DNA of 53,358 bases from Alphaproteobacteria bacterium (GTDB lineage: Bacteria; Pseudomonadota; Alphaproteobacteria; JAJTHO01; CANGYM01), in the NCBI GenBank assembly GCA_947458235.1, contig CANGYP010000003.1, forward strand, positions 1 through 53,358, read 5' to 3'. A program made the translations under genes and the position numbers. Shown piece by piece: positions 13,651 through 45,832 of this stretch. The notes under the pieces are model-generated. The model searched no databases. It was not told where the DNA came from and was given only the letters and a program-made list of their open reading frames with translations. The first letter of the stretch is position 1; every line of letters starts with the position of its first letter.

Positions 13651-15189
13651 TTAGCGGGGGGCAGGGGCCGTCTTGGGGCAAGTCCCCGCCAGTTCCGTTT
13701 GTTTTTCCTTGATTTTTGTGCTGATGGCGCAGCTAATGTTCAGGATTCTGGGATTCCATTGATAATCAGGGTTTTTGGTGTAGTACTCTAAAAATTGTTT
13801 CGCCTTGGCGGCGTAGGCCTTGGCGAAGCGGATTTCCCCCTCCAGAACGCGGGGGGTGTCGTGGGGATCATTGCCAGACAAAGGCATATAGGCGGCGGCT
13901 TTTTTTTGCAGATTGGTTTTGCGCTGGGCCAAAGAGAGCGGGGCAGGGGACAGGCCATCAAGGCCAGACTGATCCAGTGTCATGAAAAAAGTCGCCATAT
14001 CCTCGCGCTGGGCCTTAGCTTTGGCCACGGAGGGAGGCACCATGCGGTCATAGTCGGCTTTCATGGTTTGCAGATCTTTGGTGGCCTGCGCCACGGCGCG
14101 CCGCTGGCCATCAAGGGCGGACATAACAAAAGGGTTGTTTTTTAACGAAGGATTTTTTGCCAATGCCGCCTCGGCACGCGCCAAAGTCCTTTGTTGGCGG
14201 CGCAGGGCGTAATCTTGGCGTTGCATTTTGGCCTCAAACGCCATCCAGTTGCGGGTGGTGGTATCATACAGTTGGCTGTGTTGTTTGAACACGTTTTGCA
14301 CCAAAGCCACCCGATTTTCGGATTGTAACCATGCGGGGTTTTGAATCCCCGTTTGGCACCCCAGCAGATAAAAAAGGCCGCTGCTGTCAAAGGGCAGGGG
14401 GCGTTTCAGCAAAGTTTGTATCCCGCGGGAAAAGCGTTCGGAAAACACAGACGCATTGTTGGGGGTTTTGGTGGGAAAGCAAGCAGGGACCTGCGTTTGC
14501 AGGGTGTTTAGGGTTAATCCAGCATCACTCAGCTGGGTCAGGGTGTCTGTGACGCTAGAGGCTGTCATGGCCATCAAAGAGGTTAACGTGGCCCCCATGC
14601 GGGTCCGCAGAAGGCCAGCCTGTTCCGCGTCGCGCATACGGGCCAGCAGGTCATCCAAAAGTTGGGTCTCTAGGGCAAGGCCCCCGCCCTCTACGGGGGA
14701 TATTTTCAGGGGGCCTAGAAACTCTGGATTGGTTTGTAGGATTTTTTGCATGGCGGAGGCTGCCGAGAGGGGTTGGATCGCCGTCTCAGGGGCGGGCATA
14801 CCAGGCAGGGAAGGGGGGGGTAATGCGATTGGGGGGGTGCACCCCCGAATTTGCTGGTCATAGCGTTTTAAATCCCGAACAAATTTCTCATAGGCCTGAT
14901 CGGGTTTCAGGAAATAGGGTTGCAAAGTCTGAAACACCTGTTTGTGCTGTTCATTCAGGGCGATGATGGCCTCTTCATGGCGGATGGCGGCCTGAAAGGT
15001 GTTTTGAAACGTCAGGGATAGACTATCGCCCCGAATCAGGGTTTCTGTGGTTTTCCATTGGGTGGCGGCACTGGTGACTTGACGTGCCTGTGCCTGACTT
15101 TGCAAACACCGCAGGGTCCCCTGATCAAAGGGGGCAGCCCCCGCCGAGGGCCACGCAAACGCCAGAACAATCAAAATGAAAATCCCCAT
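13651..15189 (-). CDS. Exported protein of unknown function, type IV secretion operon
   Basis: A 512-residue protein with a signal peptide (MGIFILIVLAFAWPSAGA, probable cut before APFDQ). The mature part is mostly helical, with a Pro-rich linker at about 120-140 (PPIALPPPSLPGMPAPE) and a long Ala/Gln/Arg/Lys segment at about 310-400 that looks like coiled coil. Six cysteines are scattered. It is the last gene of the operon that begins with the VirB2-like genes, 33 bases after the 391-residue gene. Position after VirB4 suggests a VirB5/TrbJ-like periplasmic or pilus-associated part, but no family motif is recognised. A run of eight G on the plus strand (14813-14820) lies in the linker. Confidence 0.75.
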   Translation of the reverse strand: MGIFILIVLAFAWPSAGAAPFDQGTLRCLQSQAQARQVTSAATQWKTTETLIRGDSLSLTFQNTFQAAIRHEEAIIALNEQHKQVFQTLQPYFLKPDQAYEKFVRDLKRYDQQIRGCTPPIALPPPSLPGMPAPETAIQPLSAASAMQKILQTNPEFLGPLKISPVEGGGLALETQLLDDLLARMRDAEQAGLLRTRMGATLTSLMAMTASSVTDTLTQLSDAGLTLNTLQTQVPACFPTKTPNNASVFSERFSRGIQTLLKRPLPFDSSGLFYLLGCQTGIQNPAWLQSENRVALVQNVFKQHSQLYDTTTRNWMAFEAKMQRQDYALRRQQRTLARAEAALAKNPSLKNNPFVMSALDGQRRAVAQATKDLQTMKADYDRMVPPSVAKAKAQREDMATFFMTLDQSGLDGLSPAPLSLAQRKTNLQKKAAAYMPLSGNDPHDTPRVLEGEIRFAKAYAAKAKQFLEYYTKNPDYQWNPRILNISCAISTKIKEKQTELAGTCPKTAPAPR

Positions 15190-15222
15190 GCTCTACAGTC
15201 TTTCTTCGCGTCCCTGTTGCCG

Positions 15223-16398
15223 TCACTCTTGCCACACGTGGTAGTTGGGATTGTGGTAAAGGGCATGCAGCGAATCGCGCTGCAGTTTTAGGTTTTTCAG
15301 GTGGATTGTGTATTGTTCCAGCAGGCTGCGATCGGCCTCCAGCTTTTGGATCATGGCCAGACTGCGGATGATGCATCCAGAAATGGGCATATTCAGCGTT
15401 TGCAGCTTTGTGGAAAACGCGGCGCCTAGGCCAGATAAGCCACCGCCGATGAGGGGATCTTTAATGAATTGACTGGAAAATCCCGCCAATTCCCCAATAA
15501 TGGCGAGGGGGTTTTGGTTTTGAAAGACAGAAAGATCCTCCACACAGGGTTCATACAGGGTTTTGACGAGGTCTTCTGTAAACAGTTGCCGCATATGGTC
15601 ATGCACACGCCGCATCTCAGAAAAGGCATTCATGCTATAGGCCGCATGGTTGACGATGGCACTTTTGTAGGTTGCCTCCAGACATTGTTTTTGGGCCGCG
15701 AATGTTGTGTTATCACGCTGGTCTTTGTTCAAATCGATCATCTCTGCGATGGTTTTCTGGGCACACTGCATTATATATTGTGTGCGTTGGGCGTCGGTGA
15801 TTTTTTTTTCCGCTATGGCCAGATCCGCCAGTTTTTCACACTGCAAACAGCCAAAATCCGTGGGGGCGGGGTATATTTGGCGGGATTCCTCGATCAGGGC
15901 CCGCATTTTGGCATCGGGCATACCGATGGCATTTTTGATGCCTGTTAGTAAATAATACTGCTCACTGCGTTGTTTCAAAAGGTAATCGAGTTGGGCCGAT
16001 GTGGCTTTGAACTCATTAACCCGCTGGGTTTCATAAAATTGCCGACTGCCGGGCAGCATGGTCAGGTCTGTGACGCAAAACCCCGCTCCGCACCAAGTCG
16101 CATGACAGGGAATGTATCTAATGCAACCAAAACTTCCTGGGGAACATGGTTTACCAGGACATAAACAGCAACCATTAACATTAGGCGTAGGGTAACAAGC
16201 TGAATCCACGCATATATTCACCGGCATAATGGGTGGCGTGGGGATGGATGGCACATAGGCTGGCGGTGCCCCTAGCCCCAGCAGGTTGCTGCCTGCGTTG
16301 GCGGCGGTTGTGGCGGTTGAAACAATATCCGCCACGGGCACGGCCCCCGCCGTTGCCGACAGCCCTGTGATCAGCAAAAACAGGATCGCCCAGCGCAT
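15223..16398 (-). CDS. Exported cysteine-rich protein, type IV secretion operon
   Basis: A 391-residue protein with a signal peptide (MRWAILFLLITGLSATAGA). After a Pro-rich stretch comes a compact cysteine cluster: ten Cys at about 63, 68, 77, 78, 80, 85, 92, 98, 103 and 108. The remainder is helical and contains more cysteines (for example CLQCEK at about 185), with a Leu-rich coiled end. This suggests a disulfide-stabilised head on a helical stalk in the periplasm or on the surface. It starts 2 bases after the 588-residue gene stops, so it is co-transcribed. No family is recognised; a VirB5/TrbJ-like role is only a positional guess. Confidence 0.75.
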   Translation of the reverse strand: MRWAILFLLITGLSATAGAVPVADIVSTATTAANAGSNLLGLGAPPAYVPSIPTPPIMPVNICVDSACYPTPNVNGCCLCPGKPCSPGSFGCIRYIPCHATWCGAGFCVTDLTMLPGSRQFYETQRVNEFKATSAQLDYLLKQRSEQYYLLTGIKNAIGMPDAKMRALIEESRQIYPAPTDFGCLQCEKLADLAIAEKKITDAQRTQYIMQCAQKTIAEMIDLNKDQRDNTTFAAQKQCLEATYKSAIVNHAAYSMNAFSEMRRVHDHMRQLFTEDLVKTLYEPCVEDLSVFQNQNPLAIIGELAGFSSQFIKDPLIGGGLSGLGAAFSTKLQTLNMPISGCIIRSLAMIQKLEADRSLLEQYTIHLKNLKLQRDSLHALYHNPNYHVWQE

Positions 16399-16400
16399 GT

Positions 16401-18167
16401 TTATTCAAGATCTAGGGCTATCGTCTTAGGCCCAGATTCAAAAAAATCCCCCATGCTGGCACAGACATTTTGCAGAATGACCTGCTCTGCATTGACGTTG
16501 GCCATGACCAGATTGTACATGGACAGCCCGATCAGGACGTTGAGTTGGCTGGACACAGCACCATTCTCGCCAGCGCTGGACAAGGCAGCGGCCTGTAACG
16601 AGGCGATGGAGGGACACAATGTTTTTTTCCCATCTTTCCCACTCTTGGTCTTATACAAGGCTGTTTTGCATAGGTTTGAGTTGGTATTTGTTCCCAAAAA
16701 CAAGTCCTGCATCAGTTTTGCCGGTCCCTGTTGTTGCATGACGGCCATGGCGGCGCAGCGGGATTTTGACAGGCCTTGGAAATGACGGTTGACTTGATTT
16801 TCTATCTTGACACAGTTGGATGTGCTGGTCGCTATATTGCGGTTACAGTTTTTGAGGGATCGTAAAATCTCCTCCATCGCTTCGAGTTCGGACATTTTGG
16901 TCTTCGTTCTTGGCAAGGGCGCCGTATTGGGGGTGTCCATGGGTAGGATGCGGGGCGTGCCTGGGCCGCCAGGCTTCACGTCACCGGGGTTACCGCCATC
17001 TTCCCATGGCAAAGGTTTTTTTGGGTTGATGGCACTGATCTTATTCAATGTATCCACCAGTCCTGAGACTAAACCTACTTGTGCCATCCAACCGTTGATA
17101 GGACCAAGGAAGGTTGCGAGATTCGTCACAGCCTTTTGCCATTCCTTCACTTTATCTTCGTCTTTTTTTGGCATAATGAGTCCGCCTTGGATGAGAGATT
17201 CGGTGAGTTGGTTAGCTTGCAAAGCCTCGATCGTCTTTCTTATTGTGTCTGGATTCACGCCCCCACCAAATAAATCTATGATGCTGCCGATCAAGCCAAT
17301 CAGTGTGCCGAAGGCTTTGAGTTGTTCCATGATCTGCACAAATTGGGGGCCGAATGTGATACCAAAGGCTTCACCGAAGAGGTTCGCCATCTCCGTGAAC
17401 GTTGTGATACCAGAGGTCGTACAGGTAAAGATGTTTTTACAGGTTTGGAGTTTTTTGAATGATTCACTCGCGTTATCGATGTTTGTTTTCCATCTGTTAA
17501 TATCTTTCGTAAGTTGCGTAAGCTTGGCAAGGTAATCTGGTTTGTTGTCAAAATCCTTTAGTTTTGCTGTGCCCTTAAACGTAAATTGGTCTCCGTAAGG
17601 GTCGCGAGGGTCAAGATCAGGGATGGGTACGGGGGTTCCAAAATTAGGATTCGTTATAATATCAGGATCGGGGAGCGTGACATTGCCCCCACCCCCCCCC
17701 GGTTGTGGGATCACAGGGAGCGTGCCAATGTCCCCACCCCCCCCCCCCGGTGGGGGGGTCACAGGACGGGTCACAGGTTGGGTCGTTGTTGTAGATCCTG
17801 CCTCTTTTATGACATTATAGGCCATGGACAGTTCCCCCGTATAGGCCGCGTACAGGGAGCTGGAAAAGGCCAACAAAATTTTATCGCTGGTGACTGTTTC
17901 TTCGTCTTCGGGAATGTACTTAATAGCCGCCAGAATCTGATCCAGTTTGTCGTTGGTTTCGCCTTGGAGGCCGACAAGGAGCCCAAGCTGCACATTTATG
18001 GCGGTCAACAAGCCTATTTGTGTGCCCAAAAGCCCTTGGGCCACTGTATCCGACACCATCACCGTCGTGGGGGCCACGGCCGCCGAGGCCCCGTGCAGCG
18101 GCATCATCACCATCTGAATCGCGATGACAGAACACAGGATGCGTCGAAAAAGGGAAACCATAGCCAT
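16401..18167 (-). CDS. Large exported protein with Gly/Pro-rich linker, type IV secretion operon
   Basis: A 588-residue protein. The N terminus is a signal peptide (MAMVSLFRRILCSVIAIQMV, cut near GASA). A helical region at about 35-120 follows, then a linker at about 124-185 of Thr, Pro and Gly with two GGGGG blocks, and a mainly helical C-terminal region with a hydrophobic stretch at about 265-300. Cysteines near the C terminus are paired in spacing (NCNRN, SNCVK). The linker is encoded by two long poly-C tracts. The ATG at 18161 is an alternative start with better ribosome-site spacing. It follows VirB4 in the operon. Function unknown; a surface or pilus-tip role is possible. Confidence 0.75.
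   Translation of the reverse strand: MAMVSLFRRILCSVIAIQMVMMPLHGASAAVAPTTVMVSDTVAQGLLGTQIGLLTAINVQLGLLVGLQGETNDKLDQILAAIKYIPEDEETVTSDKILLAFSSSLYAAYTGELSMAYNVIKEAGSTTTTQPVTRPVTPPPGGGGGDIGTLPVIPQPGGGGGNVTLPDPDIITNPNFGTPVPIPDLDPRDPYGDQFTFKGTAKLKDFDNKPDYLAKLTQLTKDINRWKTNIDNASESFKKLQTCKNIFTCTTSGITTFTEMANLFGEAFGITFGPQFVQIMEQLKAFGTLIGLIGSIIDLFGGGVNPDTIRKTIEALQANQLTESLIQGGLIMPKKDEDKVKEWQKAVTNLATFLGPINGWMAQVGLVSGLVDTLNKISAINPKKPLPWEDGGNPGDVKPGGPGTPRILPMDTPNTAPLPRTKTKMSELEAMEEILRSLKNCNRNIATSTSNCVKIENQVNRHFQGLSKSRCAAMAVMQQQGPAKLMQDLFLGTNTNSNLCKTALYKTKSGKDGKKTLCPSIASLQAAALSSAGENGAVSSQLNVLIGLSMYNLVMANVNAEQVILQNVCASMGDFFESGPKTIALDLE
17692..17748 (-). repeat. Two poly-C tracts inside the 588-residue gene
   Basis: A C9 run at 17692-17700 and a C12 run at 17737-17748 (plus strand), each preceded by a shorter C run, encode the two glycine blocks of the linker. 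In the current lengths the frame is open. A change of one base in either would stop translation early, which is how phase-variable genes switch. This is a possibility, not shown. Confidence 0.75.
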
Positions 18168-18212: not shown

Positions 18213-20663
18213 TTAAGAATCGCTGTCAAGGTAGATGTTCAGCCATTCGGATTGGTAATTTTGCATCAACCGCTCTGCCAAGGCGCGGGAGGGTTCATCG
18301 GAATAATAAATCCGCATCAACCGCCCCAGCGCGGACAGGTCCGTGTCCAGAATGATGGATTCCCCGCTGGCCCGTTTCATCAACACAGAGCGTTTCAGTT
18401 TCTTGGCGGCGGGCAGCTTGCCGCTGATGTACAGCCATTCTCGCTCGGTTAATCCCCAGTCCTGATATTCCCGCGCTTGGCCTTGGGGGTTGGGGAAGAA
18501 AAAGGTGGTTTGCGCCTGACCACGGATGGCCTCGCCGAGGCCGGCTTGGGTGATGGCCTCTGGCCGCTGGAACGCCGAAATGACGGCGCCGCGCCGTTTT
18601 CGATATTCCTGCAACATCTGCAAAAAATAATTCCGGAAAATGGGGTGCTTGACCACGGGTTCCGTTTCATCAATAAAAATCAGGGCAGGGGCCTTCAGTT
18701 CGGAAATCGTATCCTGAATACGGTGCATCAAATACAAAATCACGGCCCGCGCCAAATCATCATGTTCGTACAGGCGCGTAAAATCCAGCGCGACAATGCG
18801 GGATGTTTTTAAATCCAGCGTGTCTTGCTTGGCGTTAAAAATTTTTCCATAAACGGCAGGATCCACCCATTTGTGAAGGTTTTTCCGCAGCATACCGCCT
18901 TTGCTGTACACCGCATCATAAATGTTGGCCAGCGACCGCCGTTCATAGGGCAGGCCGGGGGTGTCATAGGCGGCCTCAATGGAAAACCCGATTTCCTCGA
19001 TGGCATCGGCATCCTGACAATCCGACAGCGCCTGAAGAAACGCCCTGAGAAAGGATCGGTTGGACGCATTATCCTTGAGCTGGAACGGATTCATGGACGA
19101 TTGAATGCCGGGGATGTTGGACCCCTCAAACGTAATATAACTGCCCGAGGCCGCGCAGGTGAACAGATACCCCCCCCCGTGACGGTCCACCATATAATAG
19201 CGTAAATCCTCGTGCCGCATGGCCATACCCGCCAGAAAGTTGATCAGCGTGGTTTTTCCGCCCCCTGTGGGGCCAATGCTGACGGCGTGGGCGACGGCGG
19301 CCTTTTCGGGTGAGATATGAAACTGAAAGGCGTAGGGCGTTCCAGAAATGGTCCGAAAGTTGGCAATAGGTCCCTTGCCCCAGTCCGAAGAGGTCAGCCC
19401 TGGAAAGGGGCGCTCAAACGTCAAATGCGTGGCGATGTTTTTGGAAAACAGTTTGTAGGGCCGCGGCCATAATTTGAAACTGGGGAATTGTAAAAACCAG
19501 CTGGCTTGCGCCACGGCCCCCTCGCGCACCACAGAGATCCCATAAGTGCTGGCGATGCGTTTGACTTCGGCTTCGGTGGCTTCCATTTCCTCCACCGTTT
19601 TGCCATAGCAAAACACCATCATCATGTATTGTGACAATACGTTGGTGCCGCCCGTGTTGCCCTCCACCGCATCCAGTGCCGTTTCAAATTGGGCGGCGGT
19701 GCCCGGACTGAATCGCTGGGCCAGAGACAATTTGTATTGGTGGGTGATGTGGATGGCGGCTTTGGTTTTGGTCCACGGTTCGATGACGTGGGACACAATA
19801 ATTTCTCCGTGAACGCTGTTTAGGGAATTGACATAGGCTTCGTAGGTAAAATCCCCCAGCGCCCGTAACCCGACACAGCAGCAATGCAGGGTTTTGTGGC
19901 CCGATCGGAACAGGATACCCCCATCATCCCCCCCAAATTCCACCTGATCCCCGCAAATGGCATCGGATGCCCCATCCCCCACCCCCCCCGGCACGGGCTG
20001 GGAAATCGGGCTGACAATACGGGAAAACACATACAGGGGGCGCATTTTCACATCGGGATGGCCTTGTGTCATGACCATGGGGCCATATTTGTGCAAAATG
20101 TTTTGGGTGATATCGATGACAGAGTTTAGCTTTTTCTGGGACGTTTGGTCTTTGTCAGGCAAAGAAAAAACCACAAACTGGCGGTTGCTATAGGCGCGGG
20201 CAAAGGTTCCGTTCCATCGTCTGGCAATTTCCCGCAACACAGGGTTGCTGTGGGTTGTGGGGGGTGCGACATCCACTCTTTCGCGGACGGTAAAGGCCCG
20301 AATGCTGACATGATAATCTTGCAGGGCATCGATCCAGTCCTTGCGTGCCAGCAACAGCATTTCACGGTCGTGATCGCTCATGAACGTATCATCAAAGCCC
20401 ATCATTTCCACGCATTGCACCAAGTCCCCGTTTTTACAGGCAATGGTTTTGCCATCGCTTAAGACCTTTTCAAAGGGCAGAACATCCGCCAGACGGTCTT
20501 CTCTGGGATAGGGCAGCAGGACGCGGGCCGTGGTGGGTATGGCGATGACGGCAAAGGCCACACCCGCCGCAATGACACCCAGCAGGGTTAGCAGCACAGA
20601 GACCACACTGAAATGTTCAGAAAACGCAGCCAAAACCTCGGGGGATAAAGACTCAGGGGACAT
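18213..20663 (-). CDS. VirB4/TrbE-family type IV secretion ATPase
   Basis: The motor ATPase found in all type IV secretion systems. The 816 residues have an N-terminal membrane segment (about 20-43), a CagE/TrbE/VirB4 N domain (DGKTIACKNGDLVQCVEMMG and the following MSDHDREMLLLARKDWIDAL), and the ATPase. Walker A is GPTGGGKT at 464-471 and Walker B is LIFIDE at 661-666; a RRGAVISAFQRPE sensor segment follows. It overlaps the VirB3-like gene by 11 bases. C9 and C8 runs occur within it (19170-19178, 19982-19989). It should power pilus assembly or substrate transfer. The exact family (vir, trb or other) is not settled. Confidence 0.93.
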   Translation of the reverse strand: MSPESLSPEVLAAFSEHFSVVSVLLTLLGVIAAGVAFAVIAIPTTARVLLPYPREDRLADVLPFEKVLSDGKTIACKNGDLVQCVEMMGFDDTFMSDHDREMLLLARKDWIDALQDYHVSIRAFTVRERVDVAPPTTHSNPVLREIARRWNGTFARAYSNRQFVVFSLPDKDQTSQKKLNSVIDITQNILHKYGPMVMTQGHPDVKMRPLYVFSRIVSPISQPVPGGVGDGASDAICGDQVEFGGDDGGILFRSGHKTLHCCCVGLRALGDFTYEAYVNSLNSVHGEIIVSHVIEPWTKTKAAIHITHQYKLSLAQRFSPGTAAQFETALDAVEGNTGGTNVLSQYMMMVFCYGKTVEEMEATEAEVKRIASTYGISVVREGAVAQASWFLQFPSFKLWPRPYKLFSKNIATHLTFERPFPGLTSSDWGKGPIANFRTISGTPYAFQFHISPEKAAVAHAVSIGPTGGGKTTLINFLAGMAMRHEDLRYYMVDRHGGGYLFTCAASGSYITFEGSNIPGIQSSMNPFQLKDNASNRSFLRAFLQALSDCQDADAIEEIGFSIEAAYDTPGLPYERRSLANIYDAVYSKGGMLRKNLHKWVDPAVYGKIFNAKQDTLDLKTSRIVALDFTRLYEHDDLARAVILYLMHRIQDTISELKAPALIFIDETEPVVKHPIFRNYFLQMLQEYRKRRGAVISAFQRPEAITQAGLGEAIRGQAQTTFFFPNPQGQAREYQDWGLTEREWLYISGKLPAAKKLKRSVLMKRASGESIILDTDLSALGRLMRIYYSDEPSRALAERLMQNYQSEWLNIYLDSDS

Positions 20664-20949
20664 ATTTGCGGATCCCGTGCTTTCCCTTAATCAAATTGCG
20701 TGTGGATCGTTTGCTATAGGCCCATGCGGGGACAAGGGTGGCCATATGGGGCTCCCGCGCCCCTTGGGCGGCCAAAACCATATGGAAAACAATCAGGGAA
20801 ATGATAACTAACAACGGGCTGATTTTAAATAACCCCCACGCATACACAATGCCCAAGGCATGCAAGCCCATGTTAATGATGGCAGGGATCATGGGGGCCC
20901 AAAACAGGGTGGGGGGACTGGCAACAGCACGCATGACTTTTTCTGGCAT
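20653..20949 (-). CDS. VirB3-like inner-membrane protein
   Basis: A 98-residue protein, normal for VirB3/TrbD. It starts MPEKVMRAVASPPTLFWAP, has two close hydrophobic helices (about 16-55), and then the REPHMATLVPAW segment, matching the REPR-type turn of VirB3 after the second helix. The frame is open to an ATG at 20991, but AGGAAGG before the ATG at 20949 decides the start. It lies directly before VirB4, as in nearly all type IV systems, and its product probably works with VirB4. Confidence 0.85.
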   Translation of the reverse strand: MPEKVMRAVASPPTLFWAPMIPAIINMGLHALGIVYAWGLFKISPLLVIISLIVFHMVLAAQGAREPHMATLVPAWAYSKRSTRNLIKGKHGIRKYVP

Positions 20950-20980
20950 GGGAGAACCTTCCTGACAATACCCCCAGAGT

Positions 20981-21550
20981 TTAGGGGCCATTGGTTAAAT
21001 AATTCACAATGGCACCAGCAGAGGTGATAATCGCCAACCCTGCCGTTAACGCAAACAACCACCGAAACGGAAATTTCCCAAACAGCCCCATAATCCCCAA
21101 GGCCGCTGCCGCAACCCCGCCCAAACCGAACAGGACATTGCGGGTATCTGTAAATAACACCTGTCCTGTGTCCCCAATGACCTTGGCTGTTTCCGCATAG
21201 GTTGTCACATTCTGGTTGGGTTGTACAACCTCTTTATAAAGCCATTCGCACATGGCGGGGACCAAGCTGGCGATGACCAGCGCGGCCATGACGGTAAACA
21301 GCCAGCCCCAAGGCATCTGTCCCCCATACATGGCCCGAATGCCAATGCCCAGCATGGCCAGCGTGCCTAGGGCATAGATGATGGGTTTGGAACTGTTGAT
21401 GATTTCGCTGCCTTTGATCACAGCCTCTGAAAATGGATTGTCGGGGCCGGCGTTAACGCTGCAGGCGGCCCCAGTGGTGGCCGCTGACGCCTGTCCCCCC
21501 AGTCCCATGAGCATCAAAACCATCGCAAAAAGGATCATCCGCGGGGCCAT
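20981..21550 (-). CDS. Double-length VirB2-like protein
   Basis: A 189-residue protein with a signal peptide (cut near QASAA) and two copies of a VirB2-type hairpin: helix, short basic loop, helix. Copy one is about 55-100 with GGQMPWGWLF, copy two about 138-185 with GKFPFRWLF. The usual VirB2 pilin has one such hairpin, so this looks like a tandem fusion. Its two mature cysteines may form a disulfide. It lies between another double protein and VirB3. It may be a minor pilin, a pilus base or a cap. That is inference. Confidence 0.82.
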   Translation of the reverse strand: MAPRMILFAMVLMLMGLGGQASAATTGAACSVNAGPDNPFSEAVIKGSEIINSSKPIIYALGTLAMLGIGIRAMYGGQMPWGWLFTVMAALVIASLVPAMCEWLYKEVVQPNQNVTTYAETAKVIGDTGQVLFTDTRNVLFGLGGVAAAALGIMGLFGKFPFRWLFALTAGLAIITSAGAIVNYLTNGP

Positions 21551-21562
21551 AGAGAGGGGTTC

Positions 21563-22216
21563 CTAGTTGGTTTTGGGTATGCTGTAATCGAGAGGTTGTA
21601 AAGTGCCACTGATGTTATCGTTGGGATTGGCAAAATTATCGCCCCCGACGTTATCGCCCCCCATAACCCCCACAACATCGGCCAGTTGCGCGGTAAAGGT
21701 AAAGCCCCCCAAAATGGCCATCATCCAGCCCCACCGAAAGCGGCCCGATAAAAACGATACGGCGGCCACGCCCATGGCCCCAAAGGCCCCCACGCCGTAC
21801 AAAACCTGCTTTAAACTGACGGCCACGGTGTCGCTGAATTTTTCTGTGGTTTGGAACAGCTCAACACCGTTGGATGTATAGCCGCTGTAGGCCCTGTATT
21901 GCTCGCGGACGGATCCATAAAATTCAGGCATGATGGACAAAAACGCCAAGGATCCGATATAGGCAAAAAAGTATCCCCACGGCCAGCGCCCCAACAGGGA
22001 CATGATAATCAGGCCAATGGCCCCCAAGCCCGCCAAACCAAACGCCACCCCGCCCATGTTATCGGCCATGCTGTTGGCGGAACCCTCTAATTTCGCGATG
22101 GGGGATTTTGCAATGGCGGCCGCTGTTTGGGTGAAAACAACCATCAGGCCCAAAACCAAAACCCCCCACCACAGCCCGCCGCCCAAACGTCGGAAAAAAC
22201 GGGGGGCGGGGGACAT
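21563..22216 (-). CDS. Double-length VirB2-like protein
   Basis: A 217-residue protein with two VirB2-type helical hairpins, about 56-98 (LLGRWPWGYFFAYIG) and 136-184 (SGRFRWGWMMAILGG), joined by a hydrophilic segment rich in Tyr. The N terminus is a basic signal peptide (FFRRLGG then a hydrophobic core to TAAA). The C-terminal 30 residues are Asn/Gly/Asp-rich and polar. It has a strong AGGAG ribosome site. With the 189-residue gene it makes a pair of duplicated-module pilin relatives, which is unusual. Confidence 0.82.
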   Translation of the reverse strand: MSPAPRFFRRLGGGLWWGVLVLGLMVVFTQTAAAIAKSPIAKLEGSANSMADNMGGVAFGLAGLGAIGLIIMSLLGRWPWGYFFAYIGSLAFLSIMPEFYGSVREQYRAYSGYTSNGVELFQTTEKFSDTVAVSLKQVLYGVGAFGAMGVAAVSFLSGRFRWGWMMAILGGFTFTAQLADVVGVMGGDNVGGDNFANPNDNISGTLQPLDYSIPKTN

Positions 22217-22250
22217 GGCGGGGGACTCCTGAATTGTTGATATAATGAAA

Positions 22251-22607
22251 TTAATCGCTGGTTTCTAGGCCACCAAGATTGGTTCCACCTCCAGCGAGGT
22301 TTTCAACAGCAAGGTTGTAAAGCCCAATCAGGGCCAATCCGCCGACCAGTCCAAAAAACCACCCCCATTGAAAGCGGCCAAAGAACGCCAAGGCACCCAA
22401 GGCTACGGCCCCTAAGCCGCCGATTCCATAGGAAATGGTGCGGCTGGCCTTGGTGGCGTCCCCGACGACACCTGACACCTCGGTGGTAATGTTTTGGCCC
22501 GTCAGCTGTCCATTCCCCCATGTGACTGAATTGTTAGCGAATGCTGGGGGGGAAAAAGCCATAAAGGCAACAAACATAAGACTGAAAAGGGTGAGTAAAT
22601 GTTTCAT
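22251..22607 (-). CDS. VirB2-like pilin (single module), paralogue 1
   Basis: A 118-residue protein: signal peptide MKHLLTLFSLMFVAFMAFS with cut near PAFA, a short variable region (25-42), then the two-helix pilin module with the loop FGRFQWGWFF, and a variable Gly-rich tail. Residues 43-101 are identical to the neighbouring paralogue at 22662-23012. VirB2 proteins form the pilus of type IV systems. The AGGAGAT ribosome site fits the start. It is probably the major pilin or one of two alternative ones. Confidence 0.88.
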   Translation of the reverse strand: MKHLLTLFSLMFVAFMAFSPPAFANNSVTWGNGQLTGQNITTEVSGVVGDATKASRTISYGIGGLGAVALGALAFFGRFQWGWFFGLVGGLALIGLYNLAVENLAGGGTNLGGLETSD

Positions 22608-22661
22608 AAGGGGATCTCCTAGTGATATTTGGATTTGTTAGATTCTCTCTATCCAAGATGG

Positions 22662-23012
22662 TTAAGGTGTACTGGTTTTGAGGTCGCTAAGGTTGCCTCC
22701 CCCTAGGTTGGTAACGGCCAAGTTGTAAAGCCCAATCAGGGCTAATCCGCCAACCAGTCCGAAAAACCATCCCCATTGAAAACGGCCAAAGAACGCAAGG
22801 GCCCCCAAGGCCACAGCCCCCAATCCCCCAATCCCATAGGAGATCGTGCGGCTGGCCTTGGTGGCGTCCCCGACGACACCTGACACCTCGTCTGTTATGG
22901 GACTGCCTTTGAGGTTCCCCGGAGCCCACTCCACTGGGCCAGCGGCGGCTGGGGGGGAAAAAGCCATAAAGGCAACAAACATAAGACTGAAAAGGGTGAA
23001 TAAAGATTTCAT
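22662..23012 (-). CDS. VirB2-like pilin (single module), paralogue 2
   Basis: A 116-residue protein with signal peptide MKSLFTLFSLMFVAFMAFS and the same 59-residue core as the paralogue at 22251-22607. The two differ in the mature N terminus (GPVEWAPGNLKGSPIT here, NNSVTWGNGQLTGQNIT there) and in the C-terminal tail. The frame is open to 23105, but the ATG at 23012 follows GGAGA and gives the matching signal peptide. Two pilins with the same core and different exposed ends suggest surface variation or two filament types. Confidence 0.88.
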   Translation of the reverse strand: MKSLFTLFSLMFVAFMAFSPPAAAGPVEWAPGNLKGSPITDEVSGVVGDATKASRTISYGIGGLGAVALGALAFFGRFQWGWFFGLVGGLALIGLYNLAVTNLGGGNLSDLKTSTP

Positions 23013-23064
23013 AAGGGTATCTCCGTTGATGTTGGTGTTCTGAGGGTGTTGGTTATGGTGTGCA

Positions 23065-23430
23065 TCAAAAGGGATCCCCCGTAAAAGCGGTGACGCCTGT
23101 GCCATAAAGGCCCACCAGCATCAATCCCCCCATCAATCCCCATAACCAGTTCCAATTAAAGCGGCCAAAAAACGCAAAGGCTGACAGGGCCACGACCCCA
23201 AGGCCGCCCAAGCCATAGCTGATTTGCCGCCCAGAAGATGCACTTTCATCCACAAAGGTTTCCATTTTTCCAATCACTTGATCGGGGGATTTAAAAGATC
23301 CTGTGGTGGTGGTGGGCCATCCCGCTGCATCGGCAGTTGTGGCGTGACCACACAGCAAAAGGCCAGCCAAAATCACAATCCCCAAAACACGACCACAAAG
23401 ATCGGAAAACGACAGAACGGCGTTTGTCAT
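23065..23430 (-). CDS. VirB2-like pilin (single module), first gene of the operon
   Basis: A 121-residue protein, more divergent than the two paralogues after it. It has a signal peptide (cut near TADAA), a Thr/Ser-rich N-terminal part and the pilin hairpin SYGLGGLGVVALSAF...FFGRFNWNWLWGL. It has a GAAGGAG ribosome site. It is the first gene after the dyad promoter at 23454-23485 and therefore probably the start of the ten-gene operon that runs to 13651. Confidence 0.85.
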   Translation of the reverse strand: MTNAVLSFSDLCGRVLGIVILAGLLLCGHATTADAAGWPTTTTGSFKSPDQVIGKMETFVDESASSGRQISYGLGGLGVVALSAFAFFGRFNWNWLWGLMGGLMLVGLYGTGVTAFTGDPF

Positions 23431-37408: not shown

Positions 37409-37438
37409 TGTGACTTTTGCCACAAATTTTATTATAAT
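37409..37438 (+). promoter_or_regulatory. Promoter with TGTGA-N6-CCACA dyad, second secretion locus
   Basis: A near-perfect dyad (37409-37424; one mismatch in the second half) is followed 8 bases later by TATAAT at 37433-37438. GTGACT in the first half gives a -35 position with a 17-base spacer. The start codon is 20 bases after the -10 box, behind AGGGAG. The arrangement copies that of the promoter of the VirB2-VirB4 operon at 23454-23485. Confidence 0.65.
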
Positions 37439-37457: not shown

Positions 37458-39626
37458 ATGACAGCACGATTCGGCTTTTTGCGGCGTGTGGCGGCCTTGG
37501 CGTTGTGCCTTGGCGCGATGGTGTTGATGGGCGGGCAGGGGGCGTGGGCTATGTCTTGCGTTCAGGCGGCTGAAATTGTGGATGCCCTGTATAGTACGGG
37601 GGCAGGTGCGGGTAGCAATGGGATTCCTGGGGATTACAAACCCCCGTGTCAGTTACCTGCTGGCAGGATTATTGCCATCCAAGCTACTGAAAGTGGTCCC
37701 TATGGAAATTCTGGAACAGAATCAGGAGGAGGTGCCAAAGGTTGTGGGCAGTTGATCGGGCATAAAAATCCCACTTACCCTATTGGATCCAAGACCTTGA
37801 GCTATGATCTCCTAGGCAACAATATACACAATCTCTTACGGGGCGCAGAATATCTTTGTTATTTGCAAGATTATTTAAGATTGTATGTAGATGAAGATCG
37901 CTGCGAACTCATAGCCGCTGCCTATAATGCTGGGGAAGGTGTCGTACAAGGTGGTATACGATTGAACAAATCTCGTGGAAAACCACTGACGTTGGAGAAC
38001 ATTTTGGAAGCAGGTGTGCCATTATTTCCTAGACTGTACCCTGTTCCTCAAAAAAAAATAAAAGAGGCTTTGGGCCATGCAGGATGCACCTGCGGGGGAG
38101 AATATAGAAAATATGTTGAATCTGGACGGTTTTGTCGCCCCAACGGCGGCGGCATCGGCGGCATCGGCAACGTGGCCACAGGGGTTTTGATTGTGGATCA
38201 AATCGCCGATGTGGGCACGGGTGTGATTCAGGCGTTGGCCAGTGTGGTGAAAACGGCTGTTGTGTTGTTTGACAAACATCTGGGACCTGCGTTGTTGAGT
38301 GTGGTGATGGTGATTTACAGCATCATGGCCCTGTGGGCGATTGCCAAGCTGCTGATGCCCTTTGGCCGTCCAGGGAATGCGGGCCAGACCATGAACGGTC
38401 TGTTGACCTTGACGGGTACGGTGGGGATTGTGGCGTTGATGTTGAACAATCTCAGTTTGCTGACGTCCATGGTGTTTTTTCCCATCATGAGCTTAATGAC
38501 AGAGCTGGGGGATCTGAGTGCCAGCAGTTGTCAAAGTGCCAGCACACTCTCCACCCCATGCACTGCGGCCAATGCCCAATCCCTGTCGGGGGATGTCGCC
38601 AAAGATGCCAAGCTGTTGGCCACCCGCATGACCTGTACCGTGGATCAGGCCATGCAGCCCCTGAAACAAATCCTGCGCATTTCCATGGCCAGCCTGAAAC
38701 GGCTGGAGGGGGATTTTCAGAGTCCAGAAGCGTCCTTTATCCAAAACATCACGGATAGACTCCCGGGTGCGAAGTTTTCTGTTCTGGGACTGGTGGGTGG
38801 AAAGATCGATGAAGCCAAAACACAGAGCACGCAGATTTTGGTATTGGCCAGTGCGGTCCCCTTGGCGGTGATGTCGGCGACGTCCATTTTGGGCATCGTG
38901 GCCACCACGGCGCAGGCCTTTTGGAAAATTGCCTTTGAATTTTTTAAACTGGCCCCTGCGGTGGCGGCCTTTGCCTTTCGTCCCACACGGGGTGTGTTTT
39001 CCACCAGTGTTAAGGGGTGGATCAGCCCCATCATGATCTTTGCGGTGATTTACAGCATATTGGGCCTATCGTCGGGCATTGTATGCAATCTGCCCTTGGG
39101 CAAAACGGCCGATGGGAAAGACTACACATTAGGTGAGAGTGGCGATGCGTATGTTGCGGGTATTCCTGATGCGCCTGTTATAGGGACGCTCCCTGATCTT
39201 TTTCAATGGAAGTCGGGCGAGGCCCTGTTCCCTGTTTTAACCAAAAGCGTTTGGATCACGTTGGCCTTTTTCACCATTTTTATTAACAGCTCGTTGCGGT
39301 TGGCTGCCAAGATGGATTGGGTGGGCGGCGGCGGTCTGGCCGATGGTCTGCAAAAATTGGTCAGCAATACCTTGGGCAATCTGGATCATTACAAAGCCCT
39401 GATGCAAAAAACCGTGGGCTTGGCCAGCGATGTGGCCCAAAATGCTTGGATGAAATCTGGGGATGAGAAAAAGAAGGACAAAGAAGATAAAAAAGATGAT
39501 GGTAAAGAGGGTGACAAGGACAGCAAGCCTGCGGACGGATCGTCCTCGGAAGGGGGCCAGAGCAACACCGACCAAAGCGGGGGTAGCCAATCGGCCCCAA
39601 GCCCGCAGGAAAGGACCCCCGTATGA
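37458..39626 (+). CDS. VirB6/TrbL-like membrane protein with N-terminal lytic transglycosylase domain
   Basis: A 722-residue protein. After a signal peptide (cut near AWAM) comes a soluble SLT-type domain: catalytic Glu78 in IQATESGPYG, GAKGCGQLIG at 92-101 and AAYNAGEG at 154-161. From about 240 there are several membrane helices in two groups (about 275-350 and 460-600), as in VirB6/TrbL channel proteins, and then a Lys/Asp/Glu/Ser-rich tail of about 60 residues. The domain order joins a VirB1-type peptidoglycan cutter to a VirB6-type channel. The SLT segment looks more A+T-rich than the rest. It overlaps the next gene by 4 bases. Confidence 0.85.
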   Translation: MTARFGFLRRVAALALCLGAMVLMGGQGAWAMSCVQAAEIVDALYSTGAGAGSNGIPGDYKPPCQLPAGRIIAIQATESGPYGNSGTESGGGAKGCGQLIGHKNPTYPIGSKTLSYDLLGNNIHNLLRGAEYLCYLQDYLRLYVDEDRCELIAAAYNAGEGVVQGGIRLNKSRGKPLTLENILEAGVPLFPRLYPVPQKKIKEALGHAGCTCGGEYRKYVESGRFCRPNGGGIGGIGNVATGVLIVDQIADVGTGVIQALASVVKTAVVLFDKHLGPALLSVVMVIYSIMALWAIAKLLMPFGRPGNAGQTMNGLLTLTGTVGIVALMLNNLSLLTSMVFFPIMSLMTELGDLSASSCQSASTLSTPCTAANAQSLSGDVAKDAKLLATRMTCTVDQAMQPLKQILRISMASLKRLEGDFQSPEASFIQNITDRLPGAKFSVLGLVGGKIDEAKTQSTQILVLASAVPLAVMSATSILGIVATTAQAFWKIAFEFFKLAPAVAAFAFRPTRGVFSTSVKGWISPIMIFAVIYSILGLSSGIVCNLPLGKTADGKDYTLGESGDAYVAGIPDAPVIGTLPDLFQWKSGEALFPVLTKSVWITLAFFTIFINSSLRLAAKMDWVGGGGLADGLQKLVSNTLGNLDHYKALMQKTVGLASDVAQNAWMKSGDEKKKDKEDKKDDGKEGDKDSKPADGSSSEGGQSNTDQSGGSQSAPSPQERTPV

Positions 39627-41203
39627 TCCGCATCATGATCCTGTTGATACTGCTGGGGGGGTGGGGGCAGGGGGCTTGGGCGGCAACGCTGGGGAAGTCT
39701 GATCCATTCACGCCGCCGCCAGCATCCACCCCAGCCCCTGATCCGTCGTCCGCGACCCCATCGGGAAGCTCGAATCCTCTGGATTTTGGAAAAATAAACG
39801 TTCCAAATGTGGGCACCATCGATGCGTTTGACCCTGGCGAAAAACGTCTGGCGGAAACGTGCCAGACTTACGAAAGTATGTTTGTTGTGCAGGGGGATAT
39901 TACCGCCAACAATCCAGCGGCCAGTTTGATCCAGAACTTTTTGCGGGCTTTTGCGGCCCTGCAACAGGCCTTTAATACCAAAATTGCGGATGCGGCGGTG
40001 GGGTTGGGGTTGATTTTGCTGGTGTTGTTTTCGTTGTTTTATGGGCTGCGGTTGGTGTTTCCCTTCACCCCTTACGGGCAGATTGCGGAGACCTATAACC
40101 AGATTTTCAATCTGTGGGGTGTGGCGGCCGTGGTGTTTTTGATTGTCATGAATCCGAATTTTATCCCCAACAACGTGGTGTACCCTGTGTTCAAAAGTTT
40201 GGTGAATGCCAATTTTACTTTGCTGCAGGTGTCCTCGACCTTGGCCAACGAGGCCACAGAGGGGGCGTCCAAAACCGACCCCAGTTGCCTAGGGAAATCA
40301 GGGGGCAACAACCCGTTGGAGCGCATCATTCGCGGCATCGTCGAACAAACCACCTACGCCCAAGGCGTCAGTATGAACAACCTGTGCATCAGTCTGAGCA
40401 TTATCGGCTTTGCCGATCCTGATGACGGCGACCGCTGTCTAGAAGCCAACAGGAAAAAAAGCACTATCGAGGCCTGTAAAGCTGAAAATGTGGCCAAAGG
40501 TTTATTGGAGGCGGCGTGGTGTGAGGCCGTGATAGAAGGACAATTCCTGGCTGGGGCTTTTATGGGGGCCCTGGATCTGATAGGGGGACTTTTAAATATG
40601 GCTTGGAAGGCACTTTCATCTGAGAATCCCTTTATGGTGCTCCTTAACGTCGTCATTAAAATGATTTTTGGATTTGGTTTGTTCATGATTGCATTGTATA
40701 AATACCTGATGATCGGGCTTTATATGCTAGAGGCCGCTATGCTGCCCTTTATCCTGTCCGCATTTTGGAGTTTGATTTTGATCGTTGGCATCATTCCTGC
40801 GGGGCGAGAGGTCATCAAAACCGCCTTCTTCGCCGTCTTGCAGGGCGGTGCCACCATCATTTTTCTGGGGGTTGGGCTGTCTGTGATTGCGGCGATGGAT
40901 ACTTATGTCTGGTATCAATTTACGAAGGATCCCAATATGGTCCAAACGACACTCGTCAGTTCCAAAAACTTTATGTACGCTTGGCCTTTATGGATGATTT
41001 TAATCACCAGCTTTGCGGGCATCAACGCCCTGAAGCAGGCACGGTCCATGGCGGAATCGGTCTTTAAAACGGGCCTTAGCTTACAAATCGCCGACAGCTT
41101 GTTTGGAACGTTTAAGCAGATGGTGTATTTTGCCATGGATGTTTTGGGGGATCTGGCCAGTGCTGGGGGCTTTAGCAAAATTCGCCGTGTGGTGCTGCGC
41201 TGA
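39623..41203 (+). CDS. VirB6/TrbL-like membrane protein
   Basis: A 526-residue protein with a signal-like N terminus (cut near AWAA), a Pro/Ser-rich region (about 25-60), and six to seven membrane helices at about 115-175 and 310-460. The middle region contains several cysteines in a soluble loop. It matches VirB6/TrbL in size and layout. Its start overlaps the stop of the SLT-VirB6 fusion, so they are translated together and probably sit in the same inner-membrane complex. Two VirB6-like genes in a row recall the expansion seen in Rickettsiales, but homology to those is not shown. Confidence 0.8.
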   Translation: MIRIMILLILLGGWGQGAWAATLGKSDPFTPPPASTPAPDPSSATPSGSSNPLDFGKINVPNVGTIDAFDPGEKRLAETCQTYESMFVVQGDITANNPAASLIQNFLRAFAALQQAFNTKIADAAVGLGLILLVLFSLFYGLRLVFPFTPYGQIAETYNQIFNLWGVAAVVFLIVMNPNFIPNNVVYPVFKSLVNANFTLLQVSSTLANEATEGASKTDPSCLGKSGGNNPLERIIRGIVEQTTYAQGVSMNNLCISLSIIGFADPDDGDRCLEANRKKSTIEACKAENVAKGLLEAAWCEAVIEGQFLAGAFMGALDLIGGLLNMAWKALSSENPFMVLLNVVIKMIFGFGLFMIALYKYLMIGLYMLEAAMLPFILSAFWSLILIVGIIPAGREVIKTAFFAVLQGGATIIFLGVGLSVIAAMDTYVWYQFTKDPNMVQTTLVSSKNFMYAWPLWMILITSFAGINALKQARSMAESVFKTGLSLQIADSLFGTFKQMVYFAMDVLGDLASAGGFSKIRRVVLR

Positions 41204-41496
41204 TGCATCTGATCTATTGTCCCTGTCCCCAGTATGACGTGGCTGCGGCCTTGGCCCGCGGCCTGTTGGAACAGCGTTTGGCCGTGTGCGTGAACATCAT
41301 CCCCGCCGTCACATCCCTGTTTGTGTGGGATGGTCAGATGGTGCAGGAAACCGAAGGGGTTATGGTGGTGAAAACCCTCACCCCCCAAGAGGCAGAGGCG
41401 TATTTGAGTGCCCATCATCCCTATGACGTGCCCGCCATTATGACCATCCCTGTGCAGGCCAATGCCGCCTTTAAGGCGTGGGCCGAGGGCATATGA
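41203..41496 (+). CDS. cutA: CutA-family divalent cation tolerance protein
   Basis: Small trimeric cytoplasmic protein of 97 residues linked to copper tolerance; the real role is still unclear in the family. Typical features are the N-terminal strand YCPCPQYDVAAALARGLLEQ, then RLAVCVNIIPAVTSLFVWDG and the C-terminal PYDVPAIMTIPV. It starts on the last base of the upstream VirB6-like stop and overlaps rsmA by 4 bases. Confidence 0.93.
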   Translation: MHLIYCPCPQYDVAAALARGLLEQRLAVCVNIIPAVTSLFVWDGQMVQETEGVMVVKTLTPQEAEAYLSAHHPYDVPAIMTIPVQANAAFKAWAEGI

Positions 41497-45148: not shown

Positions 45149-45832
45149 CTATTCAGCAAAACGAATGACTTTTAAACCGCGTTGTTGGCGTTGATTCAGG
45201 ATTTCATAACGACGGGCCCGCTCCATAAGGGCCACGCGTTCGTAAACCTTCCGCACAGCGGGGGGGTACGAGGGAGCACCACGGGTCACAGGCGCCGACG
45301 CTGTAGGCTCGCCCCGCTGTTTACGCCAAGCGGTCAGAATACGCTTTTTATAGATCATCTGCCGCTCTGGTGTTGCGGAATGGTAATAGGCGATGGCCCG
45401 CGCCCACGTAGTGTGACGGGCCTTCAGCTCTTGCAGAAACTGCGCGGCGTAGGTGACGTTGGCCATGGGGTCAAAGCCTTCTTCTAAGGAAGAAAACGCC
45501 TTAGGGTGATGTTTTAGATTGATTTGCATGCACCCGATGTCAATGCTTTTTTTGCCCTGCTTGCGGAATTTTTCAACGGCGGCAACGGCTTCTTGCTTGC
45601 TGTCGTAATAATGGCCAGCCCCTTCAACGTTCAGGGTCCATGGCCAACCTTCTGTTTTTCCATTTAAATAACGGCCTGATTCTGTGACGGAGATAGCGTC
45701 TAGCAATTGATAGGGCATACCGTATTGCCGCTCAACCTGACGGATGGCATCATAACACACGCCAGCCCACGCCCCCCCCGCCCCCATAAGGCCAAACAGA
45801 CAAAGGCAAGCCACGATCCGAACAGGTTTCAT
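45149..45832 (-). CDS. Secreted lytic transglycosylase (SLT domain)
   Basis: A 227-residue peptidoglycan-cleaving enzyme with a signal peptide (MKPVRIVACLCLFGLMGAGG, cut after AWA). The SLT domain runs from about 25 to 170, with catalytic Glu51 in ISVTESGRYLN and IGCMQINLKHHPKAF at about 95-110. The basic C-terminal tail has a short Arg-rich helix. It could serve either the flagellum (rod penetration) or the type IV system (VirB1 role). It lies between pabB and the flagellar block, so context does not decide. Confidence 0.88.
   Translation of the reverse strand: MKPVRIVACLCLFGLMGAGGAWAGVCYDAIRQVERQYGMPYQLLDAISVTESGRYLNGKTEGWPWTLNVEGAGHYYDSKQEAVAAVEKFRKQGKKSIDIGCMQINLKHHPKAFSSLEEGFDPMANVTYAAQFLQELKARHTTWARAIAYYHSATPERQMIYKKRILTAWRKQRGEPTASAPVTRGAPSYPPAVRKVYERVALMERARRYEILNQRQQRGLKVIRFAE

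Follow-up and report, generated by a model that had tools for sequence, protein, structure and literature searches.

The gene at positions 37458-39626 of the window (the whole analysed stretch of DNA, 53,358 nt) raises the question of whether a wall-cutting enzyme can be a built-in part of the channel of a type IV secretion system (T4SS). The gene belongs to a freshwater alphaproteobacterium with a small genome (G000). An earlier note, made from the sequence alone, had read it as a lytic transglycosylase (SLT) domain fused in one gene to a polytopic VirB6/TrbL-like protein with a charged tail. The gene, its parts and its downstream neighbour are as follows:

37410-37438, plus strand: sigma-70-like promoter site GTGACT-17-TATAAT, 19 bases before the start codon of the fusion gene (consensus match)
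37458-39626, plus strand: SLT-VirB6 fusion open reading frame (P0001), ATG start, 722 aa
37458-37550, plus strand: signal peptide, residues 1-31 (cleavage ..GQGAWA/MS), with a hydrophobic stretch at residues 5-23 and an AxA site
37638-37997, plus strand: A+T-rich segment, codons 61-180, GC3 0.358 (codon composition)
37665-37979, plus strand: SLT lytic transglycosylase domain, residues 70-174 (Pfam; motifs Glu78, GAKG at 92, AAYNAG at 154)
38208-39467, plus strand: VirB6-family core, residues 251-670, about six hydrophobic segments (profile-profile comparison, hydropathy, tree)
39438-39623, plus strand: charged low-complexity C-terminal tail, residues 661-722 (direct sequence reading)
39623-41203, plus strand: second VirB6-family protein, 526 aa, its start overlapping the P0001 stop by 4 bases

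The P0001 reading frame was scanned for a frameshift or an internal stop, and neither was found. The sequence AGGGAG stands 5' of its start codon. The sigma-70-like site is weak evidence only, since the number of such matches in the region is about that in shuffled sequences, and the signal peptide was assigned by eye, without a signal-peptide predictor. The genes after P0001 encode the second VirB6 protein, which has orthologues in two other genomes (G002_37c and G003_79b), CutA1 (named from Pfam CutA1) and RsmA. The gene cutA follows the second VirB6 gene in three of four genomes of the order (window 39623-41496; L008 1455-3349; L010 717-2332), and we have no explanation at hand for why a metal-tolerance gene should adjoin a gene of the T4SS. 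A further observation concerns the congener G001, in which a tRNA-Met gene and a tyrosine integrase gene are located upstream of nuoG (L035:4002-5433, contig C72), at the place taken in the window by the SLT-VirB6 gene. From this, an integration site near the SLT-VirB6 locus is possible.

The N-terminal part of P0001 is an SLT domain with a complete active site. Pfam SLT (PF01464) matched residues 70-174 with E 6.3e-5 and 23.0 bits (curated cut-off 21.3), and in a genome-scale six-frame search it scored 26.7 bits at P0001. The E-value refers to one protein searched against the entire library, which makes a chance match unlikely. The catalytic Glu78 (ES motif), GAKGCGQL at 92 and AAYNAG at 154 are all present, and therefore we consider the assignment of this divergent domain, whose score is close to the cut-off, to be convincing. 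The fold and the muralytic activity are inferred; an AlphaFold model of the segment alone, computed from a single sequence, had a pLDDT of 32.

The polytopic half of P0001 belongs to the VirB6 family, as shown by profile-profile comparison without a direct Pfam match. TrbL (PF04610) was not found in P0001, while homologues in the order do match it; we attribute this to the sensitivity limit of the Pfam model and do not regard it as a defining trait. The independent tests of the core are two hhalign runs. When the core and its congener homologue (76% identical to P0001 across the core) were compared with six further VirB6 proteins from the order, the result was 94% (E 1.2e-7), and addition of the G002 orthologue raised it to 99.6% (E 6.4e-24). 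The two-row core reached 25% against canonical TrbL proteins, and the 13-row VirB6 profile of the order reached 94% (E 1.2e-7) against canonical TrbL. Residues 251-670 matched the profile of the order with E 5e-109, a value which is not independent because P0001 itself is one of the rows. The core is thus tied to TrbL-matching proteins by the congener homologue, the G002 orthologue and the neighbouring VirB6 gene. According to hydropathy, six hydrophobic segments follow the signal peptide, which meets the VirB6/TrbL criterion of about five or more. An AlphaFold model of the core with four sequences had a pLDDT of 33, and a sequence search of solved structures with P0001, its SLT part and the VirB6 profile gave no useful match; a pentameric stalk is inferred. 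Up to this point the earlier note held in all three respects: the SLT domain with its motifs at the places it gave, the VirB6/TrbL-like remainder ending in a charged tail, and one intact gene without a joining frameshift.

Further T4SS and SLT genes in the window are:

18213-20663, minus strand: VirB4 ATPase of the T4SS (CagE_TrbE_VirB above cut-off; TIGR00929 E 3e-100, below the curated cut-off)
20653-20991, minus strand: VirB3-like protein adjoining VirB4 (PF05101 E 3e-4, 21.5 bits, under the cut-off of 23.9)
20981-23430, minus strand: up to five tandem VirB2/TrbC pilin-like genes, two of the five above the Pfam cut-off
45149-45832, minus strand: separate 227-aa SLT protein, candidate VirB1 (PF01464 28.7 bits)

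The pilin-like array sits directly upstream of the VirB3-VirB4 genes, and similar tandem arrays have been reported in Patescibacteria (PMC12102498). VirB8, VirB9, VirB10 and VirB11 are grouped on contig C41, and of the five VirB6 genes in this genome two are in the window and three on contig C32. In a tree of the VirB6 cores, those of the order fall into five orthologous groups, and G000, G001 and G002 are represented in every group. VirB2, B3, B4, B8-B11 and the multiple VirB6 genes are spread over separate chromosomal clusters, in agreement with the rickettsial-type (rvh) layout. We conclude, based on the VirB components, that G000 has a rickettsial-type chromosomal VirB system; VirB3 is just under its Pfam cut-off and VirD4 was not sought. 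The separate SLT protein matched NCBIfam VirB1 with E 0.0019 only, far below the cut-off, and P0001 fails the VirB1 criterion of a stand-alone soluble SLT protein since its SLT domain lies within a VirB6 reading frame.

Two other observations were made on these clusters. Three exported-looking proteins of 588, 391 and 512 aa are encoded after VirB4 (13651-18167, minus strand); no Pfam or NCBIfam family was found for them, and they are possible candidates for VirB5-like or lineage-specific T4SS parts. VirB10 (L120:3613-5316, contig C41) has a CFA65/HYDIN-like Ig domain at residues 82-177, before its TrbI domain, with a match (E 4e-5) just under the cut-off.

How could the SLT domain have come to lie in a VirB6 gene? 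The earlier note held that the SLT portion is more A+T-rich than the rest, and took this as a suggestion that it was added by recombination. The first statement was confirmed: GC3 along the gene falls to 0.358 in codons 61-180, against a mean of 0.609 (SD 0.067, minimum 0.425) in 490 overlapping 120-codon windows from the genes of the window, which are not 490 independent tests. Outside the segment, codons 1-60 (0.63) and the core from codon 223 on (0.65) resemble the neighbouring genes. The second statement was supported by this deviation and by G002, a member of another family of the order. Its genome holds an orthologue of the P0001 core (tree support 100/99), which carries a different, unrecognised Cys-rich N-terminal region without detectable hhalign similarity to the SLT part. 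Because the GC3 of the segment deviates, codons 1-60 and the core are native-like, and the N-terminal region in G002 is unrelated, a domain swap, in which an SLT cassette was inserted behind the existing signal peptide of a VirB6 gene, is likely. Whether the congener has the SLT domain is undecided, since the edge of its contig falls at about residue 217 of P0001.

We also considered the N-terminal region in G002 as a diverged SLT domain and rejected this for lack of hhalign similarity, though a single-sequence comparison is weak. At L009:8081-11985 (G002, contig C37) there are two VirB6 proteins with Cys-rich N-terminal regions of about 220-255 aa, which matched nothing in Pfam and NCBIfam; possibly they are further cassettes.

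The place of the inferred insertion, between signal peptide and core, is also the place of a different wall enzyme in a paralogue. The largest VirB6 protein of G000 (1463 aa, L032:6032-10423, contig C32) carries a YkuD (L,D-transpeptidase) domain there, at residues 80-207 (E 3.8e-7, 31.2 bits, cut-off 23.4), with the SRGC motif and the upstream His. It additionally carries an M23 endopeptidase domain after the first hydrophobic block, at residues 664-765 (E 1.3e-9, 38.6 bits, cut-off 28.7). The YkuD domain is absent from the congener orthologue, which has a short linker at this place. In this VirB6 protein and its orthologues M23 occurs throughout the order (four genomes), and no copy lacks any of the H..D, H and HLH positions. 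Pfam matched it in the G002 orthologue (E 9.8e-27) and the G003 orthologue (E 2.5e-19); the G001 copy is too diverged for a Pfam M23 match, and there the H..D, H and HLH positions were found by alignment.

The C-terminal tail of this largest protein showed another domain. In G001 (L037:941-4522, contig C86) residues 951-1005 match the DnaJ J-domain with E 2.6e-14 and the HPD motif, and in G000 (L032:6032-10423) residues 1133-1160 match it under the cut-off (E 8e-4). It is possible that a J-domain on a secretion-channel protein recruits DnaK to unfold substrates.

Outside the order, an M23 domain precedes the VirB6 core in six proteins from six genomes of three alphaproteobacterial families (f49, f21 and f33; L097, L105, L107, L110, L086 and L112). 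In all six M23 is above the Pfam cut-off and TrbL matches with E 0.003 or better. In ten M23 copies on VirB6 proteins all metal and catalytic positions are kept. Since the M23-VirB6 proteins of f21, f49 and f33 and the large VirB6 proteins of the order are in separate places of the tree, and M23 occupies differing positions in the proteins, several separate acquisitions are likely; the deep branches are long and poorly supported, so we give no count.

The SLT-VirB6 form itself is known from one metagenome-assembled genome (MAG) only. A search with the SLT part as query, covering 385 alphaproteobacterial genomes (G001-G003 among them), gave no other match at E 0.001 or better; the fusions seen on related VirB6 proteins are those with YkuD and M23. 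A Pfam scan of 100 other VirB6-like proteins detected SLT in none, M23 in nine and YkuD in one. This sample is bounded by the 385 genomes and by the reach of PF04610 and the VirB6 profile of the order; when 70 VirB6-like proteins were scanned together, 46 matched TrbL at E 0.001, and proteins other than VirB6 may be among the remainder. A search of genome contigs for P0001 gave the congener's contig as the sole match, and none was found in viral contigs or, for the whole protein, in plasmid and phage collections. The SLT part alone found only distant transglycosylases in these collections, the best (E 3e-4) on a Cupriavidus megaplasmid, where it is unannotated. Wall domains on extended VirB6 proteins outside the Alphaproteobacteria were sought in the eight longest of a phylum sample, and no motif was found; motifs alone were checked.

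What might the fused domain do? Reviews of cryo-EM work describe VirB6 as a pentamer at the centre of the machine, and wall opening by VirB1 as an early assembly step (PMC12624023, PMC12857230). VirB6 of R388 is a pentamer. We propose that P0001 is an extended VirB6 stalk subunit of the chromosomal VirB-type system, and that its SLT domain has been set behind the signal peptide and in front of the membrane/stalk core. The core would anchor P0001 in the stalk, and the SLT domain would sit in the periplasm and open glycan strands where the stalk, the arches and the outer-membrane complex pass. It would thus do the job of VirB1 as a tethered and not a diffusible enzyme, and up to five cutters would be brought to the stalk. 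With the M23 domain of the largest VirB6 paralogue, peptides would be cut as well, and its YkuD domain would contribute L,D-transpeptidase activity in this species; several wall activities would thus be combined on the stalk.

A tethered wall cutter on the T4SS stalk is the reading that we hold most likely, with moderate confidence. The domain content, the active-site residues, the integrity of the reading frame and the relatives with other wall domains are shown. The periplasmic location, enzymatic activity, stalk incorporation and purpose of P0001 are all inferred, without data on activity, topology or assembly, and the placing of wall cutting on the channel, as the earlier note had it, is likewise still inferred. 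Two points speak against the tethered cutter. The same genome has the separate VirB1-like SLT gene (45149-45832), and because of it the fused domain is not needed to supply the activity. Further, the SLT form is known from this one MAG, and no such SLT was found in G001-G003, the congener contig being cut as described.

The main rival is a delivered weapon: the wall-enzyme domains of VirB6 would be released, or pushed through the T4SS, onto the wall of another bacterium in predation or competition, in a manner likened to phage tail tape-measure proteins with SLT or M23 domains. In its favour, the enzymes are diverse and exchangeable and their identity shifts between close relatives, as expected of weapons, and the P0001 SLT domain has weak matches in PHROGs to phage endolysin and lytic tail proteins (E 0.0012 and 0.41). 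However, the domains are covalently built into a membrane subunit, none of the genes beside P0001 was recognised as an immunity gene, and M23 is kept across the whole order, which points to a standing function. We consider the weapon unlikely. The second rival, also unlikely, is wall anchoring, in which the fused domains would hold the stalk by attaching to peptidoglycan, with catalysis lost or unimportant. The LytM and CHAP domains of PrgK seem to be regulatory and not active (PMC12857230), and the divergence of the G001 M23 domain would fit. Against this, Glu78 and the SLT motifs, the YkuD SRGC with its His and the metal and catalytic positions of the ten M23 copies are all kept.

An artefact, in which MAG assembly or gene prediction joined an SLT segment to a VirB6 gene, is very unlikely. 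The MAG is fragmented (97 contigs), the congener contig ends near the same junction and the GC3 of the segment deviates; but the reading frame is continuous over both junctions, and the native composition of codons 1-60 means that two in-frame chimeric joins would be required. Moreover, with YkuD at the corresponding place of a paralogue and M23 fused N-terminally in other families, an architecture of this kind is normal for the VirB6 family. That the polytopic half is an unrelated membrane protein can be all but dismissed: the missing Pfam TrbL match and the weak comparison with canonical TrbL would allow it, but the hhalign results with TrbL-matching members of the order, the tandem with another VirB6 gene and the clustering with VirB6 proteins in the tree contradict it.

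Returning to the tethered cutter, the wider pattern is best read as follows: in rickettsial-type VirB systems, extended VirB6 proteins recurrently serve as a platform for enzymes that remodel the wall, by which wall opening would be tethered to the stalk; here, too, activity, topology and assembly are inferred. A bolder version, which we find slightly easier to doubt than to believe, is a general platform in which SLT, L,D-transpeptidase or M23 cassettes are exchangeable and have entered time and again at one slot, behind the signal peptide and ahead of the core. The T4SS stalk of these bacteria would then be a multi-enzyme wall-remodelling machine, which cuts glycan strands and peptides and maybe re-crosslinks the rim of the hole. 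The main value lies in the pattern, since different wall enzymes are found on VirB6 in at least four families; this SLT/L,D-transpeptidase/M23 pattern and the separate VirB1-like gene go beyond the earlier note. If the reading is true, it explains directly how the wall comes to be opened at the correct site, because the cutter is part of the stalk. The exchange of wall-enzyme domains on VirB6 between close relatives may also bear on the diversification of rickettsial-type secretion systems. We found no report of wall-enzyme domains on VirB6 in the open-licence PMC literature searched, which does not prove that there is none. According to a 2025 nomenclature review (PMC12857230), the contribution of the extra domains of extended VirB6 proteins is not yet known; here several of these domains are recognisable wall enzymes with complete active sites, which makes their role testable.

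Among known systems, the closest likeness is to the extended VirB6 proteins of Rickettsiales (RvhB6a-e and the VirB6 paralogues of Anaplasma), which likewise number five in each genome, have large extra regions on the flanks of VirB6/TrbL and go with scattered VirB clusters (PMC2653234). In Rickettsia, however, the flanking regions were described as variable and worth exploring, whereas here several such regions contain recognisable wall enzymes. With VirB1 and VirB1-like specialised lytic transglycosylases P0001 shares the SLT family, an export signal and the association with a VirB system, but VirB1 is a separate soluble protein and the SLT domain of P0001 is covalently part of VirB6. The Gram-positive VirB1 proteins PrgK, TraG of pIP501 and Orf14 of Tn916 likewise bring several wall-active domains (SLT or muramidase, LytM, CHAP) near a T4SS (PMC12857230), but are not fused to the VirB6 translocon subunit. 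Finally, the N-terminal M23-VirB6 proteins of other Alphaproteobacteria resemble P0001 in having a wall enzyme ahead of the VirB6 core, and differ from it in that the enzyme is an M23 metallo-endopeptidase instead of SLT and that they belong to other VirB6 paralogue lineages.
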